The position numbers were made by a program, and so were the translations under genes. This document shows positions 45,924-55,329 of a stretch of DNA of 64,000 bases, one piece after another. The notes under the pieces were generated by a model, which saw nothing but the letters and a program-made list of their open reading frames with translations, made no database searches and was not told where the DNA came from. Origin of the DNA: Nitrospirota bacterium (lineage in GTDB: Bacteria > Nitrospirota > Nitrospiria > Nitrospirales > Nitrospiraceae); contig JAPLLG010000003.1 in assembly GCA_026387665.1 (NCBI GenBank), positions 62,001 to 126,000 of the forward strand. Direction: 5' to 3'. The stretch's first letter is position 1, and every line of letters starts with the position of its first letter.

Positions 45924-46134
45924 TCTCTCTTTTCCTCCTCGTCGCCGAGAACCCTCCGCACCCACTCACCTGCATCAATTGCTGATCCGAATCGCTCCGG
46001 CATGGGCCGGAGCGACCAGCCATGCCACCATCCAGAGTAGCTCAATAGCTCCTTAGCTCCTTCGATCCATATGTTACATGGAGTTTACAGGGAATTGACG
46101 CAACTGGAATGTGTCCTGGGTAAGGTAGTGCCAT

Positions 46135-46443
46135 ATGAATATGCAGAACACCGCCCTCTCAACCTTGGAGCAAGCGATGAAAAACCCTGACGCCTATCTA
46201 TTCGTGCTGACCATCACGCTCTTGCTCGCCGCGCCAATCGTGCGGGCCATCCAAACATTGCTAGCCATGCACGCACGAGTCATCGTCCCTCTTCTTCGGA
46301 CACAGACAGGGGGGTATGCCCTCACAATGATCACATCCGTCCCAAGGATGGATGCCATCATCTGCCCCCACTGCGCATCATCCTTTAATCGCACCATCGA
46401 CTTGAACCCAACCACATTCGTACAACCAAGGGAGGCCTTATGA
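46135..46443 (+). CDS. Small membrane protein, coupled to the CBS gene
   Basis: A 102-aa protein with one hydrophobic helix (about 21-45), a basic linker and a C-terminal CPHCASSF motif that could be half of a zinc or redox site. Its stop overlaps the start of the CBS protein gene by 4 nt (ATGA), which supports a real, coupled gene. No family is recognised. Confidence 0.6.
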   Translation: MNMQNTALSTLEQAMKNPDAYLFVLTITLLLAAPIVRAIQTLLAMHARVIVPLLRTQTGGYALTMITSVPRMDAIICPHCASSFNRTIDLNPTTFVQPREAL

Positions 46444-46823
46444 TCACAGTCGATCGGCTCATGACCCGCCACATGGTCAATATCGCAACAGGCACCTCAG
46501 CCATTGATGCGGCGAAACTTATGAAGAACCACAAAATTGGAAGTCTGTTCGTGACTAAGCATGACCGCATCGTCGGCATTGTGACGGAGCCGGATATTGT
46601 CAGGAAAGTCGTTGGGGTAGATGGGGTGCCCTATGGCATCTCCGTGGAAGATATCATGAGCAGCCCCGTTATCGGCATCGACGGACGCCGGTCTGTGACT
46701 GAGGCGGCCGATCTGATGGAGCGGCATGGGACACGCCATTTGGCCGTCTTCAAAGAAAACTCGATTGTGGGGATCTTGTCGGTGCGCGACCTATTGCACC
46801 CGGTTTCTATCGATGAGTTTTAA
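46440..46823 (+). CDS. CBS-domain pair protein
   Basis: A 127-aa cytoplasmic protein consisting only of two CBS motifs (a Bateman module). Repeat 1 covers about 1-60 (VDRLMTRHMVNIATGTSAIDAA, then DRIVGIVTEPDIV) and repeat 2 about 68-125 (VEDIMSSPVIGIDGRRSVTEAA, then NSIVGILSVRDLL). Such modules sense adenosine nucleotides and usually control a partner enzyme or channel. The start is ATG 46440 with GGGAGG 5 nt upstream, overlapping the previous gene. Two small membrane protein genes follow, so a nucleotide-regulated membrane function is conceivable. Confidence 0.9.
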   Translation: MITVDRLMTRHMVNIATGTSAIDAAKLMKNHKIGSLFVTKHDRIVGIVTEPDIVRKVVGVDGVPYGISVEDIMSSPVIGIDGRRSVTEAADLMERHGTRHLAVFKENSIVGILSVRDLLHPVSIDEF

Positions 46824-46875
46824 GCATTCATGGTTTGCTTCACACGATCCGTCACAAGAAAGGGAATTCGCAGAC

Positions 46876-47001
46876 ATGGCACTTGATCTCTTCACCTCAT
46901 TGCTTGCCATGGGCGTGCAGCTCACGCTCGTCCTCGGCGGCATGCTGTTCCTCTTCTCGCTTGGCCGAGATTTCCGGAGTGCTTTCTTGGGACACGAGTA
47001 A
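46876..47001 (+). CDS. 41-aa single-helix membrane protein
   Basis: MALDLFTSLLAMGVQLTLVL... is one long hydrophobic helix followed by a charged end (GRDFRSAFLGHE). AAAGGGA lies about 10 nt upstream of the ATG at 46876; a longer form from 46813 is possible. It is 4 nt before the next gene, so it looks like a small subunit of that operon. Function unknown. Confidence 0.5.
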   Translation: MALDLFTSLLAMGVQLTLVLGGMLFLFSLGRDFRSAFLGHE

Positions 47002-47005
47002 CACC

Positions 47006-47521
47006 ATGCCCCAGATCTCCATGGAGCAGACTTTGTCGAACGGCTGGCCCAAGCGATTCATCATTACGCTCACGGCTTACGACTTCACTCGTGTCTGGGA
47101 AGCGGGCACGCGATTCATTCTGAGCCTGCTCACCCTGACGATCCTACTTGGCCTGGCAGGTGGCGTCGTCAAAACGTTTCTTGACCTGCGGCTGCTCCTA
47201 TCCACCGATCTTGAAGTCGCGCTCCGGCACATCATTGTCGATGCGCTCACCTTGCTTGCAGTCGTGGAAGTCCTGAGAACGACGTTGACCTACTGTTCGG
47301 ACGGACGAGTGCGCGTCACCTTTATCGTAGACACGGTGCTCGTCGTCATGCTGACCGAGATCATCTCCCGATGGTTCACCGGCGGGGAGTGGCATCAATT
47401 CGCGATACTGGGAGGCATTGTCATCACGCTGGGGCTCATGCGCGTCGTGGCCATCCGATATAGCCCGACGCCAGCGACGTTCACACAACAGGCCAGTCAA
47501 CCGGGACCATCATGTCCCTAA
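47006..47521 (+). CDS. PsiE-like inner-membrane protein
   Basis: A 171-aa protein with four hydrophobic helices (about 33-60, 75-95, 107-122, 133-150). EVALRHIIVDALTLLAVVEVLR followed by TFIVDTVLVVMLTEII resembles the PsiE family (phosphate-starvation-inducible E), whose biochemical role is unknown. The start is ATG 47006; an internal ATG at 47021 is possible. It overlaps the frame of the next gene only slightly and belongs to the run 46135-47808. The Pho regulon genes lie 1.5-6 kb to the right, but I see no Pho box in front of this operon. Confidence 0.7.
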   Translation: MPQISMEQTLSNGWPKRFIITLTAYDFTRVWEAGTRFILSLLTLTILLGLAGGVVKTFLDLRLLLSTDLEVALRHIIVDALTLLAVVEVLRTTLTYCSDGRVRVTFIVDTVLVVMLTEIISRWFTGGEWHQFAILGGIVITLGLMRVVAIRYSPTPATFTQQASQPGPSCP

Positions 47522-48147: not shown

Positions 48148-48840
48148 CTATCGAGTGATTGGTTGCGGCTGCCCGGCATCTGCCAATTGCACGTTAACCC
48201 GTACAACCCCTTCATTGAGCTTCTGATAGGTATAGCCTTCGAAGATCTTGGGTAAGGCGTCGGCCTGCTCCTGCTTGGTGATGAGGGAGAAGGCTGGCAC
48301 ATAGCGTCCTGCGGCGACTTTGACACCGATCAGTTTCGCTCCCGGCTCGATCACAACGTGATCTCCAACCTCGCTCCTGAATACGAACGACTGCATTCCT
48401 ACGAAGGTATCGTTGCCAACTTTAGCCGGGCCGTGGACCTGGCATTGATGGGCCAACGAGACTTGCTGCCCGATATAGACGGAGTACTTCTTCCCCTCGA
48501 CTTCCACTTCGTTCTCAAGCAGCTCATGGCCTCCTTCGAACGTCTCAAGTCCGTGCACGACGACGCCATCCTGCACATTGCTGTTATCGCCAATGAAAAT
48601 ATGTTCTCCTTCATCCCCGCGAACTGATGCCCCAGGAGCGACAAACACGTGCTCACCGATGACGGTCGAGCCACTGACCGCCCCGAGCGGGTGGATGCGC
48701 GCGGTCTTGGCAATGACCGGCACATCGACGTCGGGGTTGAACGTGGTCTTCACATTCGGGGCCACCCAGCCGATCAGCACGATACTTGCGGCCAGCACGT
48801 TGAGGCTTACGCTGAGCGCCAACAGTCTCGATCGGGTCAT
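48148..48840 (-). CDS. Membrane-anchored or exported gamma-class carbonic anhydrase (Cam type)
   Basis: Hydrates CO2 to bicarbonate; left-handed beta-helix trimer. The sequence closely follows the archaeal enzyme Cam: ASVRGDEG with the conserved Arg, Asp and Glu, SNVQDGVVVHGLE with the first zinc histidine and the following Glu, the acidic loop (ELLENEVEVEGKKYSVYIG), and VSLAHQCQVHG with the other two histidines. All metal ligands and the proton-shuttle loop are present, so this is a true Cam and not an inactive CamH/YrdA relative. The N-terminus (MTRSRLLALSVSLNVLAASI) is a signal peptide or anchor, which places the enzyme outside the cytoplasm. 230 aa from ATG 48840; longer starts at 48858/48894 are possible. 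It stands alone. Confidence 0.92.
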   Translation of the reverse strand: MTRSRLLALSVSLNVLAASIVLIGWVAPNVKTTFNPDVDVPVIAKTARIHPLGAVSGSTVIGEHVFVAPGASVRGDEGEHIFIGDNSNVQDGVVVHGLETFEGGHELLENEVEVEGKKYSVYIGQQVSLAHQCQVHGPAKVGNDTFVGMQSFVFRSEVGDHVVIEPGAKLIGVKVAAGRYVPAFSLITKQEQADALPKIFEGYTYQKLNEGVVRVNVQLADAGQPQPITR

Positions 48841-49037
48841 ACCTTCTCTTTCTCCCATGCGCTGACGTGAGTTTTCAGAACCGGAAAACGGCAATCCGGC
48901 AATGGATGGGCCACTATACCGTCATAGCCTTCGCCTGACAACAACATTGCCCTCCACTGAAGAGGGGGTATGCGAACAGGCATCTGGCATTCTCCCGTGG
49001 TCATCAACCTAATTCTGGAACCAACTGCCAGCGGAGC

Positions 49038-49730
49038 TTACTGCGGCGTGAGATCCTGCGTTGAGGAGCCTGGCGGGGTGGTGTGGCGGATGATTTTCCC
49101 CTCTACGAGGTAGACGACCAGCTCGGCGATGTTAGTCGCATGGTCTGCCATCCGTTCGAGGTATTTGGCGATAAAACTCAGGCGAATGGCGCGCGAAACC
49201 GTCTGAGGGTCCTCGATCATGAATGCCAACAGCTCACGGAATACCTTCTCCATCAGGTCGTCGACGGAGTCGTCGTTCGCGAGCACCTTCCGAGCAAGTG
49301 AGGCATCGTCCTTCACAAAGGCATCGATACTTTCCTTCACCATCATCCGCGCCAAATTTCCCATTCGCGGGATGTCGATGTAGGGCTTGAGCTGCGGTTC
49401 CTCGTTCAGCTCGATCGATCGCTCGCAGATATTCTCGGCCAGGTCGCTGATGCGCTCGAGTTCGGTGGCGATCTTCATCGCCGTCGTGACCAATCGCAAG
49501 TCTCGTGCGGCCGGCTGATGGAGGGCCAGCAACCGAATGCAGTCTTCGTCGATCTCCACATCCATCGCATTGACTTGATGGTCCCGTTCAATCACCTGGC
49601 GAGCCAGGGCTGAATCGCGCGTCACCAATGCGGCGAGGGCCTTGTCGATCTGGTCTTCTGCCAGACCGGCCATGCGTAAGAGCTTGCTCTTCAAGGCTGC
49701 GAGTTCTTCGTCAAAGTGGCGTTGTGTCAT
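49038..49730 (-). CDS. phoU: Phosphate signalling protein PhoU
   Basis: A cytoplasmic metal-binding helical protein that links the Pst transporter to the PhoR kinase and keeps the Pho regulon off in high phosphate. It has 230 aa in two PhoU repeats of three helices each. The motifs are VNAMDVEIDEDCIRLLALHQPAARDLR (repeat 1) and VDDLMEKVFRELLAFM with RMADHATNIAE (repeat 2); the similar ERISDLAENICE is in the first. The ATG at 49730 lies just beyond the pstB stop; a TTG at 49742 would overlap pstB. It is last in the pst operon. The C-terminal tail is short and hydrophilic. Confidence 0.93.
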   Translation of the reverse strand: MTQRHFDEELAALKSKLLRMAGLAEDQIDKALAALVTRDSALARQVIERDHQVNAMDVEIDEDCIRLLALHQPAARDLRLVTTAMKIATELERISDLAENICERSIELNEEPQLKPYIDIPRMGNLARMMVKESIDAFVKDDASLARKVLANDDSVDDLMEKVFRELLAFMIEDPQTVSRAIRLSFIAKYLERMADHATNIAELVVYLVEGKIIRHTTPPGSSTQDLTPQ

Positions 49731-49734
49731 AAGT

Positions 49735-50535
49735 TTAACCAAATCGTCCGGTGATGTAGTCTTCTGTTTGCTTCTTGGACGGCGTGGTAAAGAGTTGCTT
49801 CGTGAGGCCGAACTCCACCAGTTCGCCGAGGTACATGAAGGCGGTCCAATCGGACACCCGCGCCGCCTGCTGCATATTGTGCGTGACGATCAAGATTGTC
49901 ACGCGCCGTTTTAAGTCGAGCAACAGTTCCTCGATGCTGGCCGTGGCGATCGGGTCGAGCGCTGACGTCGGTTCATCCAATAAGAGCAATTCCGGATCGG
50001 TCGCCAGGGCACGGGCGATACAGAGCCGTTGCTGCTGGCCGCCGGAGAGGGAGGTTGCCCGCGCGAGTAACCGATCTTTGACTTCTTCCCACAGGGCTGC
50101 GCTCCGCAAGGCCTGTTCGACCTTCTCATCTAGAAGGTATCGCTCGGTGGTTCCTCGCACCTTCAAGCCGTAGGCGACGTTCTCGTAAATTGACTTGGGA
50201 AATGGATTCGGCTTTTGAAACACCATGGCGATCCGCATCCGCACCTCGATGGGATCGACCTCTGCTGCCAGGATATTGCGGCTATCAGGATAGAGCAGAA
50301 TTTCCCCTTCATAGCGGTTGCCGGCATAGAGGTCATGCATACGGTTGAAACAGCGGAGAAAGGTCGATTTTCCACAGCCTGACGGCCCGATCAATGCCGT
50401 AATCTGGTTTTCACCGATGGGGATCGACAGGTTCTTCAGCGCCAGTCTGCTGCCATAAGAAAAACTCAAGGCGCGCGTTTCCGCCTTGAGGGACTTGGGC
50501 CAACCCTGAGCGTGGGGTGAGTCGGTGAGATTCAT
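49735..50535 (-). CDS. pstB: Phosphate ABC transporter ATP-binding protein
   Basis: The ATPase of the high-affinity phosphate importer, 266 aa. Walker A GPSGCGKS (about 52-59), Q-loop [21 protein letters not shown], signature [16 protein letters not shown] and Walker [13 protein letters not shown], then the H-loop histidine in VTHNMQQA. The motif after the Q-loop is specific for PstB. A short polar leader precedes the domain. It lies between pstA (1 nt apart) and phoU. Confidence 0.95.
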
Positions 50536-50536
50536 C

Positions 50537-51460
50537 CTACCAAGTCACCTGCTTTCTCATGCGATATCGTACATAGATGGCCACTCCGTTCATGGTGAGG
50601 GTCATTCCGACTAAGAGGATGCCGGCCGCCGCTGCGTTGCTGGCGAAGTCCTCGCCAGGCCTCGACACCCATCCGAACATCTGAATCGGCATGACCGTAA
50701 ACGGTGACAGGAGCCAGTCGAACGAGAGATAGGGCGGTTGTGTGCTGAAGGGAGCAGGCGGCAAAAAGGCGATGAAGGTGAGGGCGCCGATCGTGACGAT
50801 GGGGGCCGTCTCACCGATGGCCCGGCTCAAGGCTAGGATAATGCCGGTGAGGATACCGGCTGCAGAATAGGGCAGGACGTGATGCGCGACCGTCTGCCAC
50901 TTGGTGGCGCCCAATGCGTAGGCCGCCTCACGGATCTCCACGGGAATTGCGCGAATCGCTTCACGCGTCGTGACGATTACCACCGGGAGAATCAGCAGTG
51001 CCAAGGTGAGGCCCGCGACAAGAATGCTCTCGCCCAGACCCAGGATATAGACGAACAGTCCGAGCGCCAGCAGGCCATAGATGATGGATGGCACGCCGGC
51101 CAGGTTCGTGACCGTGACCTCGATCAATTCGGTCATCCAGCTTCTCCGCGCATACTCTTCCAGGTAGATGGCTGCGGCGACGCCTAGCGGCACACCCACG
51201 ACCGCCGTGACTAGCATGATCAAGGTCGAGCCGACCCAGGCGGGAAGGATACCGGCTTGTGCGGCATGACGAGAGGGATAGGACATGAGGAACTGCCAGT
51301 CGATGCGTGTGACACCTTGGTACAGGAGCGCGCCGAGCAAGAGCATGAGTGTCCCGACTGCCATGGCAAGTGAACAGATCCCCAAAGCCTTGAACAGGGC
51401 TTCGGCGATTTTTCGCCGTGCGATAGAGGGGTGCTTCTGTCGAGAGGACTGGACGGACAT
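50537..51460 (-). CDS. pstA: Phosphate ABC transporter permease
   Basis: The second membrane subunit of the Pst transporter, 307 aa with about six helices. The EAA loop is visible as [21 protein letters not shown] (about 185-205). The start ATG at 51460 overlaps the pstC stop by 1 nt (TGATG) and has GGGAGG 7 nt upstream; a start at 51481 would sit inside pstC. It works with PstC, PstB and PstS. Confidence 0.94.
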
Positions 51461-52419
51461 CAGTAGGCCTCCCGAAACCACTTCCGCAGCATATGGCCGA
51501 GGATGTTGAACGCGAAGGTCATCACGGCCAACACCAGCCCTGCCGCAAAAATACTCTGGTAGCCAATGCTGCCGTGGGGCAGATCGCCGAGCGCCACTTG
51601 AACAATGTAGGCGGTAATGGTGGCGGCCGGCTCCAGAGGGTTCCAGGTCAGATTCGGATTTTGTCCCGCGGCGATCGCCACCACCATGGTTTCGCCGACC
51701 GCGCGCGAGATCCCGAGCACATAGGCGGCGACAAGGCCTGATGTGGCAGCCGGCACGACCACGCGCCAGGCCGTCTGCAGGCGGGTGGCCCCCATCGCAT
51801 AGGAACCTTCCCGTAACACCATCGGCACGGCGCGCATCGCATCCTCGCTGAGCGAGATGACGAAGGGCATGATCATAATGCCGATTACGATGCCTGGTCC
51901 AAGCATATTGAACCCCGGCAGATCAGGCCAGATCCGTTGGAGCCCCGGTGTGACGACCAATAGCGCAAAATATCCGTAGACCACGGTCGGAACGGCCCCC
52001 AGGAGTTCTAACGCTGGCTTGATGACTTCCCGCACACGCGACGAAGCGAATTCTGAGAGATAGATCGCTGCCACCGTTCCGAGAGGAATCGCCACGAGGA
52101 GCCCAACTCCGCTAGTGACGAGCGTGCCGGCGAGCAGCGGCAGGATCCCATAGTGAGGATCGGCAAAGAGGGGGGTCCAGAGTGTATCGGTGAAGAAGTC
52201 TGTGAGCGGCACCATCTTGAAAAATCCGATCGACTCAGAAAGAAGCACGGCGATGATCGTCACGGTCGCGGCCACGGAGGTCAGCGCGGCGACAAACAAT
52301 CCTCCTTCGATCGCCCTCTCGCATCGCAGCCGCGCACGACGGCGCGCAGCCGCTTCGTCTCCTGCGCCTGGGTTCTTGATCGGAATCGTTTTCTGTGCTG
52401 CCATCATAGACTGGCTCAT
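51460..52419 (-). CDS. pstC: Phosphate ABC transporter permease
   Basis: The first membrane subunit of the Pst transporter, 319 aa with about six helices. The EAA-type loop is RAVPMVLREGSYAMGATRLQT. The N-terminus (about 1-35) is polar and rich in Arg (AAARRRARLRCERAIEG) before the first helix. The start is ATG 52419, preceded by AGAGG; a TTG one codon earlier is also in frame. The gene follows pstS after 63 nt, a common gap that often allows higher pstS expression, and overlaps pstA. Confidence 0.94.
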   Translation of the reverse strand: MSQSMMAAQKTIPIKNPGAGDEAAARRRARLRCERAIEGGLFVAALTSVAATVTIIAVLLSESIGFFKMVPLTDFFTDTLWTPLFADPHYGILPLLAGTLVTSGVGLLVAIPLGTVAAIYLSEFASSRVREVIKPALELLGAVPTVVYGYFALLVVTPGLQRIWPDLPGFNMLGPGIVIGIMIMPFVISLSEDAMRAVPMVLREGSYAMGATRLQTAWRVVVPAATSGLVAAYVLGISRAVGETMVVAIAAGQNPNLTWNPLEPAATITAYIVQVALGDLPHGSIGYQSIFAAGLVLAVMTFAFNILGHMLRKWFREAY

Positions 52420-52482
52420 CAACAGACTGACCTCTTCATCATGCCCCCAGAATCAGAGCTGCAACAGGAGCCTCATGGAACT

Positions 52483-53493
52483 CTACTGTTTGGGGGGGCG
52501 ACTCATGATTTCTTCAACCGCCAGTCCGACCTCAGGCACCCCGCCGAATCCGGTCCCTAGGACGCCTTTCGTGAATCGCTCACGCGCCATACCATAGGCC
52601 TGTTCCGGCAACGGAATATACCGGACTTCTGCGATCAGCTTGGGGCCTTCCGTCAGGTAGTAGACGACGAAGTCTTTGACCTCTGTCCGCTTGGCTGCCG
52701 CCTCGCTGACATAGATGAAGAGGGGACGCGAGAGGGGCTGATAGCTGCCCTTGATGACACTTTCCGCACTGGGCAGCACCGGTCCACTCTTTCCGACAAT
52801 GGCCACCGCTTTCAACTTCTTCATCTGCGCGGCGTAATAAGCAAAGGGGATGTACCCTAATGCATGCTTATTGTTTTCGATCCCCTGAACGAGCACGTTA
52901 TCGTCTTCGCTGGCGGTGTAATCGCCACGGCTGGATTTGGGCTTTCCCACAATCGCATCGGTAAAGTAATCGAAGGTGCCGGAATCGGAGCCGGCGCCAA
53001 AGAGCATGAGCGGTGCGTCAGGCCAGTCTGAGTGGATCTGGTTCCATCTGGTGATTTTGCTCTGCGCGGCCGGTTCCCAGATTTTCTTGAGCTCTTCAAC
53101 CGTCATCGAGGTGACCCAGGTGTTCTTCGGGCTCACCGCTACCGTCAAGGCATCGAAAGCAATGGGCAGTTCGTAATAGGCAATGCCGTTCTTCTGACAG
53201 AGGGCCATTTCTTCTTTGAGGATCGGTCGAGAGGCATCCGCAATGTCCGTTTCACCTCGACAGAACTTCTTGAATCCTCCCCCTGTGCCTGCGATGCCCA
53301 CGGTTACTCGTATGTGCCCTCGGTTCGCTTTCTGAAATTCTTCCGCCACCGCCTCCGTGAGGGGATACACTGTACTCGACCCATCGACTTTAATGAGAGC
53401 CGTTTGCTCAGCCTGTGCCAGGTGACTCCCTGAACCGACGACTCCCAGAAACCCAGCCATCGCGATATAGCCCACAAACCGTACAACGAGCAT
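52483..53493 (-). CDS. pstS: Periplasmic phosphate-binding protein
   Basis: Captures phosphate in the periplasm and hands it to PstCA. It has 336 aa from the ATG at 53493, which has GGGAGGA 7 nt upstream; the frame is open to 53568 but the shorter form begins with a proper signal peptide ([19 protein letters not shown]... ending in AQA). Phosphate-binding motifs: [10 protein letters not shown] (Ser/Thr ligands), [22 protein letters not shown] and [12 protein letters not shown]. First gene of the pst operon. Three TTnACA-like half-sites with 11-bp period lie about 110-140 nt upstream. Confidence 0.93.
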
Positions 53494-53603
53494 GTGCGTT
53501 CCTCCCATCCATCGAAAGCCTTGTGGCACATTTTCGTGCCGCTGGCTCTCTGAAATAGTTCGCTTCATCTGGTCGTGAATCTACAGACGGGCCATTCCGG
53601 CGC

Positions 53604-53631
53604 TGTCACAGATATGTAAACTTTGTGTTAA
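53604..53631 (-). promoter_or_regulatory. Pho box of the pst operon
   Basis: On the minus strand TTAACA (53631-53626), TTTACA (53620-53615) and GTGACA (53609-53604) are direct repeats with an exact 11-bp period, the arrangement bound by PhoB/PhoP-type regulators. It lies about 110 nt upstream of the pstS ATG. Confidence 0.65.
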
Positions 53632-53811: not shown

Positions 53812-55329
53812 ATGGAGACCCCTCAGCGCGTGACCCTCATCAGGAGCCTCGTCGGAGCTATCGTGCTCAGCACATGCGTGAGTTCCGCCTGGGCAGTGGA
53901 GGCACAGAACAGCCAGGGCCCTGTGCGGCCAGAGGTACTGGTCTCACAAGCTGCCGGCAATGGACAAGGATTGCCGGGGACCAGAGAGTTGCCTCCTGCA
54001 GGCGCGTCGGTCGAAGATCTGCTGCTTCAGAAGGGCCAGATCACGATGGATGAGTGGATTCAAATTCGAGCCGAGCAGGAATATAAATCGGCCGATCAAG
54101 TGAAACGTATTGATGCGATCGAAGATTGGAAGTCGAAAACGGAATTGTTGCCGATGCTCAGAGACAAGGTGAATTTCGGCCTCAACGCGCTCCAATTCCT
54201 CTACGCCCGCAACGAAGCCCATGTCGCGGAGGGGAAGAGTCAGGATAATTTCTCTATCCGCCGATCCGAGTTGTTATTCTGGGGCAAGATCAGCGACACC
54301 ATTCCACGTTGGCACGCCTTAATGGAGTTTCAGAGCATTAATCTCACATCAAATACCCCAAGTACCGCTGGGGCAACAGGTGTGCCGACGTCCTCCACAT
54401 TTTTCCGTGAGTCGTACATCGACTTCCGGCCCGTGCAGTCTTGGGCTCCCAATCTGAACTACTTCCGTCTCGGCATCTTCCGGATGCCCTTCGGCATCTT
54501 CACGGAAACGTCAGGCGGATTGCGCGATATCATCAGCTCTCCGTACCTCACGTCTGTTGGTGGATCCGGGGGGCCAGGCCAGAATAACAGAGGGACCGGT
54601 GGACAGATCGACTTCTTGCAAGAGCGCGATTACTTTGTGGATGTGCGGGGGAAGATCGCCAATCGTCTCGAATATGTGGCCGGTATCATGAATAACAATA
54701 ATTTTCAGGCCAATGCCACCGGGGCCAATGGGCCGAAGGCATTCTACTCCCGTGTCCGTCTCTTCGGGACAGACGTATCCTTTATCAGCTTCACGACCAT
54801 TCAGGGAGAGTCTAACAACGCCAATACGAATATCAATGGCCGTGGGAAAGGCGCCTTTGATCGCTACGGTCTGGACGGCCGCTATACGTCCAAGCTTTTG
54901 CCTGGGTTCATGATCCAAGGCGAATGGTGGCAAGGGCACGATGGCGCGAATGCCACCACAGTCGGGGTAGGCGCCAATGGATCCTGTCCAATCGGTTGCG
55001 GGGGCTCGGGGGCACCCGGCATGCAGCGACGGACCTGGTATGTATTGACGAAGTATCTCATCACCGATGGGCCGTTGCAGAATTTTGAGCCTACGGTCAT
55101 GTACGAGCAGTTCGATCCCAACACCACCATGTCGAACGATATGTATACCAGGACGATTCTGGGGCTGAGCTATTACTTCGAAAACTTCCCTCCGAAAGCC
55201 CAATCCAAGGTGCAACTCAACTACGAGTTTCGGCATCATCAGGGGTTCGGCCCTGGGACCTCTGTCCCCAATAGCGATCCCTTTGCGCAAAATGCCTTGC
55301 TGGTCCAGTTCCAAATCCGGTTCATGTGA
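53812..55329 (+). CDS. Phosphate-selective porin (OprO/OprP-like)
   Basis: An outer-membrane beta-barrel that lets phosphate or related anions into the periplasm. It has 505 aa. Signal peptide to about residue 29 (SSAWAVEA). A short helical region (about 60-110, DEWIQIRAEQEYKSADQVKRI, possibly a periplasmic coiled coil) precedes the barrel, where many strands show the pattern of alternating residues and the end is a typical C-terminal strand (LLVQFQIRFM, ending close to aromatic-x). FSIRRSELLFWGKI and YFRLGIFRMPFGIF are typical of the family. AAGGAGG lies 9 nt upstream of the ATG. It is divergent from pstS and shares the Pho-box region. Confidence 0.85.
   Translation: METPQRVTLIRSLVGAIVLSTCVSSAWAVEAQNSQGPVRPEVLVSQAAGNGQGLPGTRELPPAGASVEDLLLQKGQITMDEWIQIRAEQEYKSADQVKRIDAIEDWKSKTELLPMLRDKVNFGLNALQFLYARNEAHVAEGKSQDNFSIRRSELLFWGKISDTIPRWHALMEFQSINLTSNTPSTAGATGVPTSSTFFRESYIDFRPVQSWAPNLNYFRLGIFRMPFGIFTETSGGLRDIISSPYLTSVGGSGGPGQNNRGTGGQIDFLQERDYFVDVRGKIANRLEYVAGIMNNNNFQANATGANGPKAFYSRVRLFGTDVSFISFTTIQGESNNANTNINGRGKGAFDRYGLDGRYTSKLLPGFMIQGEWWQGHDGANATTVGVGANGSCPIGCGGSGAPGMQRRTWYVLTKYLITDGPLQNFEPTVMYEQFDPNTTMSNDMYTRTILGLSYYFENFPPKAQSKVQLNYEFRHHQGFGPGTSVPNSDPFAQNALLVQFQIRFM

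Follow-up and report, generated by a model that had tools for sequence, protein, structure and literature searches.

The window, i.e., the whole stretch of 64,000 nucleotides that we analyzed, carries a gene (cam) for a gamma carbonic anhydrase (CA) of the Cam type. The initial annotation had given the right coordinates for this open reading frame and had said nothing of its strand, which is minus: the start codon, ATG, is at 48840 and the stop codon at 48150-48148. Upstream of cam, after a gap of 197 bases, lies phoU, and beyond it are the genes of a phosphate ABC transporter (Table 1). Three of these, pstA, pstB, and pstC, were named by eye, and the gene order is kept in other genomes. The porin-like protein encoded divergently from pstS had no match in Pfam; tblastn aligned it at 28.6% with the porin-like region of another locus (L023), and it has relatives at 71-72% beside pstS in two genomes (G215 and G221). 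On the other side, a gene for a PsiE-family (phosphate-starvation-inducible E) protein is convergent with cam and belongs to the same conserved string as a gene for a CBS-domain protein. The phosphate neighbourhood had gone unseen in the initial annotation; it is the unexpected part of the locus, and we treat it as a lead.

Table 1. Features of the cam locus, with positions in the window.
Feature	Position	Strand	Evidence
CBS-domain protein	46440..46823	plus	PF00571, E 2e-24
PsiE-family protein	46835..47521	plus	PF06146, E 6.1e-8, over cut-off
cam, Cam-type gamma-CA, 230 aa	48148..48840	minus	Translation, PDB match, dN/dS
Acidic loop of cam, residues 99-112, shorter by one residue than that of Cam; E99 corresponds to Cam E84	48505..48546	minus	Alignment
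N-terminal hydrophobic segment (candidate anchor), residues 1-26: MTRSR followed by a hydrophobic run of about 19	48763..48840	minus	Hydropathy, orthologues, model helix 2-24
GCCGGATTGCCG element between promoter-like site and start codon	48889..48900	minus	Conserved in 4 close genomes, one change in G021
Promoter-like TTGTCA-N17-TATAGT upstream of cam	48913..48941	minus	10/12 matches
phoU	49038..49742	minus	PF01895, E 9.4e-51
pstB, pstA, pstC, pstS	49735..53568	minus	ORFs; pstS TIGR02136, 298.5 bits, over cut-off
Pho-box-like repeat of three 11-bp units in the gap from pstS to the porin-like gene	53603..53631		Score 22.2, reached by 0/163 control gaps
Porin-like protein (by eye)	53812..55329	plus	ORF

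The protein encoded by cam

Among PDB sequences (phmmer), the closest to the protein were those of the Cam of M. thermophila (E 3.1e-65 to 5e-64), followed by dGCA1 (9lin, E 5e-62), CcmM chains (E 5e-35 to 3e-30), and the remaining gamma-type chains at E 1e-12 or weaker. This homology, together with a position beside archaeal Cams in a phylogenetic tree (see below), bears out the Cam-type identity proposed in the initial annotation. The best match in NCBIfam, the equivalog NF040597 (carb_anhyd, "carbonic anhydrase"), scored 270 bits and did not reach its curated cut-off of 380 bits. In Pfam, only general hexapeptide models matched the protein, for which the left-handed beta-helix and the trimer of the Cam subclass are putative. 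Fold comparison adds little, because the AlphaFold model is too weak (mean pLDDT of 61, 16 sequences). Foldseek gave no PDB match for it at E 0.001 or better (the best was 1qrm, a Cam structure, at E 0.01), and a further structure comparison returned Cam and CcmM at a Z of about 16 with an rmsd of about 12 A.

We numbered residues as in M. thermophila Cam (PDB 1THJ/1QRE), with which the core aligns over residues 27-222, and counted them over 38 distinct Nitrospirota proteins, including one (L022) from a contig labelled Geobacter. Like M. thermophila Cam, the source protein has R59, D61, E62, N73, Q75, D76, H81, E84, E88, H117, H122, N202, and a long acidic loop; unlike it, the source protein has F instead of W19, R instead of Y200, G instead of E89, and a loop shorter by one residue. 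The histidines H81, H117, and H122, which we take to be the metal-binding ones of gamma-CA, are present in all 38 proteins, as are R59, D61, E62, Q75, D76, and E84, and N202 is found in 37, the remaining protein being a gapped fragment. Position 19 is F in 37 proteins and gapped in one. Position 200 is more variable (20 proteins with R, 11 with H, five with T, one with G, and one gapped), and E89 is replaced in 36 of the 38 (32 times by G, twice by D, and once each by Q and A) and kept in the other two. The acidic loop lacks one residue in all 38. Hence, the earlier statement that the whole Cam active site is kept, including the acidic proton-shuttle loop, is only partly true: it holds for the metal histidines, E62, E84, and the presence of the loop, and fails for W19, Y200, E89, and the length of the loop. 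With these three residues changed, the rate of the enzyme may be lower.

The proton shuttle E84, the gatekeeper Y200, and the acidic loop are named as marks of the Cam subclass in excerpted text of PMC13261364, and an excerpt of PMC8000050 deals with E62 and E84 in Cam. The gatekeeper Y200, and W19 as well, are missing in all 37 Nitrospirota proteins that have a letter at these positions. In 23 archaeal rows, taken from the ANME-2 phylum search and from metagenome-assembled genomes (MAGs) assumed to be archaeal, and including three domains of one protein, W19 occurs 21 times, Y200 nine times, and E84 17 times. As only nine of these rows have Y200, this residue is not a strict mark of the subclass. 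We thus read the Nitrospirota proteins as a variant branch that would work like Cam and stand beside it. Judging by their titles, PDB entries 3ou9 and 3ow5 are Cam mutants W19F and Y200A, i.e., they concern the two positions that vary in Nitrospirota. A membrane-anchored Cam with natural changes of W19 and Y200 would be a natural test of the roles of both residues.

The N-terminus is hydrophobic, with a 19-residue hydropathy of 2.29 from residue 6. In 36 of the 38 Nitrospirota proteins, one of which (L010) has an uncertain start, a stretch of 19 residues with a mean hydropathy >=1.6 starts at one of the first 12 positions; the other two (L067 and L068) are fragments. The consensus is LSLNLLLLGFLLTGWVGPNVKTTFNP. 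The segment that the initial annotation had called an anchor is thus real and conserved, and this conservation excludes a mis-called start in all orthologues. A script flagged the lipobox pattern in no row of the alignment, and no conserved cleavage motif was seen by eye at the N-termini of the Nitrospirota Cams. This makes an uncleaved anchor likelier, and the segment looks like one that would hold the protein in the periplasm. A location outside the cytoplasm, which the initial annotation derived from the N-terminal anchor, is made probable by the hydropathy of this conserved segment. The leader of M. thermophila Cam is cleaved, and some archaeal Cams have lipobox-like leaders, in contrast to the uncleaved-looking anchor of the Nitrospira protein. 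By eye, hydrophobic or lipobox-like leaders are present in L100, L104, L106, and L114, and no such leader is present in L103 and L111-L113. An exported Cam would therefore not be new in itself.

The ratios of dN/dS among six cam orthologues ranged from 0.06 to 0.18 (15 pairs), which clearly indicates purifying selection, although the ratios are rough for several pairs whose dS is above 1. In a comparison of G000 with G020, codons 1-30 changed slightly faster than the core (pN of 0.136 vs 0.104). In sum, cam encodes a real, conserved, and probably exported protein of the Cam type that belongs to a variant branch.

Relatives and distribution of Cam

A genome search identified two gamma-type proteins in the source genome: the product of cam and a CamH-like protein (L002, contig C13), which are 28% identical. 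Both belong to the hexapeptide-repeat family and have the metal histidines, but L002 lacks the acidic loop, E84, E62, and the N-terminal hydrophobic segment. Loop-less relatives had been described in the initial annotation as the rule among bacteria. Among the rows of our alignment, L002, a plasmid-borne protein (L169), and three Planctomycetota proteins (L079-L081) fit this description. The search of plasmids matched 683 records, all below 60% identity, and the best 20 of these 683 include carbonate dehydratases and, from cyanobacteria, CcmM-like proteins that carry the annotation ribulose bisphosphate carboxylase small subunit. In the plasmid rows L168 and L169, the loop is short or missing. 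CcmM is a scaffold of beta-carboxysomes; its N-terminal domain resembles the cam product in the E84-, E62-, and W19-type residues seen in L168, and differs in its shorter loop and its separate branch in the tree.

We built the tree with 70 of 78 rows and rooted it at the midpoint. The eight rows left out are L076, L126, L127, two fragments from Nitrospirota, and the three domains of the ANME-2 protein. Copies with internal stops, e.g., a Planctomycetota Cam (L034), are not among the 78 rows, and the intact bacterial Cams in the tree are all from Nitrospirota. In this tree, a branch with a support of 100/96 separates 36 Nitrospirota rows from the rest; they adjoin the archaeal Cams and stand apart from the CcmM and CamH-like rows. 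The fork joining the Nitrospirota and archaeal Cams has a support of 92/91 and is not starred.

Cam was found in five of the 32 genomes of the genus, and, being missing from most of them, it is dispensable. It was found in 31 of the 395 genomes sampled in the phylum (E 1e-15). The corresponding samples gave matches in 43 of 294 genomes for ANME-2 and in four of 294 for Planctomycetota (E 1e-20), where only one match exceeds 43% identity and has an internal stop. Some Nitrospirota copies are broken, with internal stops (L014 and L018 in G056, L015 in G071) or split in pieces (L013 and L017 in G067, L068 in G417), which points to repeated gene loss or to assembly errors. N. defluvii (G059) carries two cam copies in differing contexts, both outside the phosphate context (L025 and L086), together with an alpha-CA. 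In the MAG labelled Geobacter (G445), the proteins encoded by cam and pstS in L022 are respectively 83% and 71% identical to those of the source, and the cam contig is probably a misbinned Nitrospira contig. Finally, a MAG of an ANME-2 cluster archaeon HR1 (G442) has one open frame of 729 residues with three tandem Cam domains (L032:3-2189), each with E62, H81, E84, H117, and H122. We take its ends to be a twin-arginine-like start and a PGF-CTERM-like hydrophobic tail. This protein is possibly a single-chain "trimer" of a normally homotrimeric enzyme.

The phosphate genes around cam

To compare gene neighbourhoods, we used 38 cam loci from 37 Nitrospirota genomes, with up to about 8 kb on each side and without the broken copies of G056 and G071, and 21 control stretches around alpha- or beta-CA genes of the same genus, chosen from 30 places over the cut-off. 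Phosphate-type genes were found near cam in 12 of the 38 loci and in none of the 21 controls (Fisher p 0.0024, for loci that are related by descent and thus not independent). Several of the query proteins had been picked from cam neighbourhoods, which favours the count, and some of the cam stretches are short. Weak matches in the controls, to pstB-like ATPases in L153 and to a lipoprotein at 28% in L159, are of kinds that were counted neither there nor in the cam loci. The 12 loci comprise all five of the genus, the one labelled Geobacter, four of five in g6, one of 16 in g18, and the only one in g19, with none of the other ten. Hence, 26 of the 38 loci, including 15 of the 16 in g18, have no phosphate neighbours, and some of these are short contigs.

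The neighbourhoods differ in their arrangement. Besides pst-phoU-cam, we observed Porin_O_P-pstS2-lipoprotein-TPR-cam and Porin_O_P-like-cam with a convergent pstS2, where pstS2 is a PBP_like_2 protein below the cut-off of TIGR02136. The lipoproteins, putative and recognized by eye, have about 235-290 residues and accompany the second PstS in the cam neighbourhoods of several Nitrospira (L023:6484-7194, L022:794-1513, L092:5184-5888, and L030:8874-9746). The one of L023 had no match in Pfam or NCBIfam.

Pho-box-like repeats were scored with motif weights of Escherichia coli and gap limits set by hand, and compared with 163 control gaps. They rank in the top 5% of these gaps at ten of 12 operon heads (the two exceptions are those of G396), but at only one of ten gaps upstream of cam. 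In the window, another triple repeat lies upstream of the string formed by a hypothetical gene and the CBS and PsiE genes (45924-46134, score of 19.7, reached by none of the 163 control gaps). The promoter-like site upstream of cam is by itself no better than chance, since 8 kb held two such sites when 4.1 were expected. Its TTGTC and TATAGTG cores are nevertheless invariant in four close genomes, even though the upstream gene differs in one of them. G020 has no such site upstream of cam, and the stretch of G445 is too short to tell. These observations weaken the idea that cam is expressed as part of a Pho operon: the repeats stand at operon heads and rarely before cam, and the four genomes have a promoter-like site for cam itself. 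Given the neighbourhood, joint regulation of cam with the phosphate genes is possible.

These data bear on a role of Cam in phosphate acquisition, as a member of a phosphate-starvation island that would act with Pst and phosphate-type porins, e.g., by setting local periplasmic pH or bicarbonate when phosphate is scarce. The excess of phosphate neighbours over the controls, the several distinct arrangements, and the repeats at the operon heads argue for such a role; the choice of queries, the weak matches in L153 and L159, the loci devoid of phosphate genes, the scarcity of repeats before cam, the failure of both G396 heads, and the promoter-like site of cam argue against it, and we regard it as unlikely, though worth keeping in sight. 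A broader version is similarly doubtful: Nitrospirota may have recruited an archaeal-type Cam into a phosphate-acquisition gene set more than once, and the anchored CA beside Pst and phosphate-type porins might couple periplasmic carbon and phosphate acquisition, e.g., with HCO3- entering by an anion porin and being turned into CO2 at the membrane under phosphate control. If functional, the recurring neighbourhood would link the carbon and phosphate supplies of a nitrifier.

Carbon supply and alternative roles

A search for other carbonic anhydrases in the source genome revealed a beta-CA besides the CamH-like protein, and no alpha-CA (PF00194). The genome also encodes a DabA-DabB-type pump and a SulP protein. 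The initial annotation mentions neither this pump nor the beta-CA. On contig C13 (G000:C13:198646-206413, L084), DabA adjoins two Proton_antipo_M genes; the beta-CA lies about 4 kb away from DabA, and SelO follows the beta-CA. Across the 32 genomes of the genus, beta-CA was found in 18, alpha-CA in ten, and DabA in 28, some of the latter being fragments. Cam and alpha-CA do not overlap in the genus (five and ten genomes of 32; chance of 0.13), which might suggest that Cam replaces alpha-CA. We rejected this idea: in the phylum sample, seven of the 31 Cam-bearing genomes also have an alpha-CA, compared with 81 of 395 overall, so there is no general exclusion. Alpha-CA has a fold unrelated to that of gamma-CA. 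The alpha-CAs of other Nitrospira, whose export is putative, and the periplasmic alpha-CA of Rhodopseudomonas palustris resemble the cam product in having a probable job outside the cytoplasm.

The best explanation of the locus, to which we give a probability of about 0.6, is a membrane-tethered periplasmic Cam that equilibrates CO2 and HCO3- for Nitrospira, an autotroph using the reductive TCA cycle. The uncleaved N-terminal helix would hold the enzyme in the periplasm, presumably as a trimer whose metal sites lie at the subunit interfaces, as known for Cam. It would bring HCO3- and CO2 into equilibrium right at the periplasmic side of the inner membrane. CO2 would then cross the membrane and be trapped by the DabA-DabB-type pump, and the cytoplasmic beta-CA could redistribute the trapped carbon, feeding the CO2- and HCO3--using steps of the cycle. 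There is a precedent in R. palustris, where, according to part of PMC10880623, an extracellular CA keeps the periplasmic pool near equilibrium. In favour of this reading are the homology to Cam, the catalytic residues that are kept, the hydrophobic N-terminus shared by 36 proteins, the place in the tree, the purifying selection, and the DabA, Proton_antipo_M, and beta-CA genes of the source genome. Against it stand the changes of W19, Y200, and E89, the weak AlphaFold model, the lack of Cam in most genomes of the genus, and the fact that cam adjoins phosphate genes, not carbon-transport genes, in this genus. Supplying carbon is still the most economical role for the enzyme.

Alternatively, the anchored enzyme might serve to buffer protons at the surface of the membrane while nitrite is oxidized or when the surroundings are acidic. 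An excerpt of PMC13109103 proposes a periplasmic buffer of CA plus urease for an acid-tolerant comammox Nitrospira, in which pstSCAB is up-regulated by acid, whereas the acid-tolerant Nitrospira culture NS4 is reported without carbonic anhydrase in part of PMC12542776. Nothing in our data separates buffering from carbon supply, and we judge buffering improbable. A degenerate or repurposed homologue with little CA activity is less credible still: the changes of W19, Y200, and E89 and the broken copies in relatives (G056, G071, G067, and G417) would fit it, but selection on the gene is purifying and the metal ligands, E84, and E62 are universal in the 38 proteins.

Carbon supply by an anchored Cam would matter because Nitrospira drive nitrite oxidation in soils, waters, and treatment plants. 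Published accounts of their genomes, as far as the excerpts go, name carbonic anhydrases but seldom locate them. One table gives 1, 0, 0, 1, and 1 CA genes for five Nitrospira (PMC7522533, in part), a review excerpt calls the CA of Ca. N. alkalitolerans cytoplasmic, and the survey of dissolved inorganic carbon toolkits in PMC10880623, seen in excerpt, covers Nitrospirae and predicts CA location. Among the matches listed in a search of the open literature, none describes an exported Cam in Nitrospira or a Cam beside phosphate genes, although Fig. 3 of PMC10880623, with extracellular CA predictions that include Nitrospirae, may already show it. For N. marina, an excerpt of PMC8115632 describes alpha-, beta-, and gamma-CAs able to convert imported HCO3- for the reductive TCA cycle. 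Three related genomes (G006, G027, and G028) have beta-CA domains in long open frames of 791-795 residues; these are perhaps SulP-CA fusions of the kind reported in that same excerpt.
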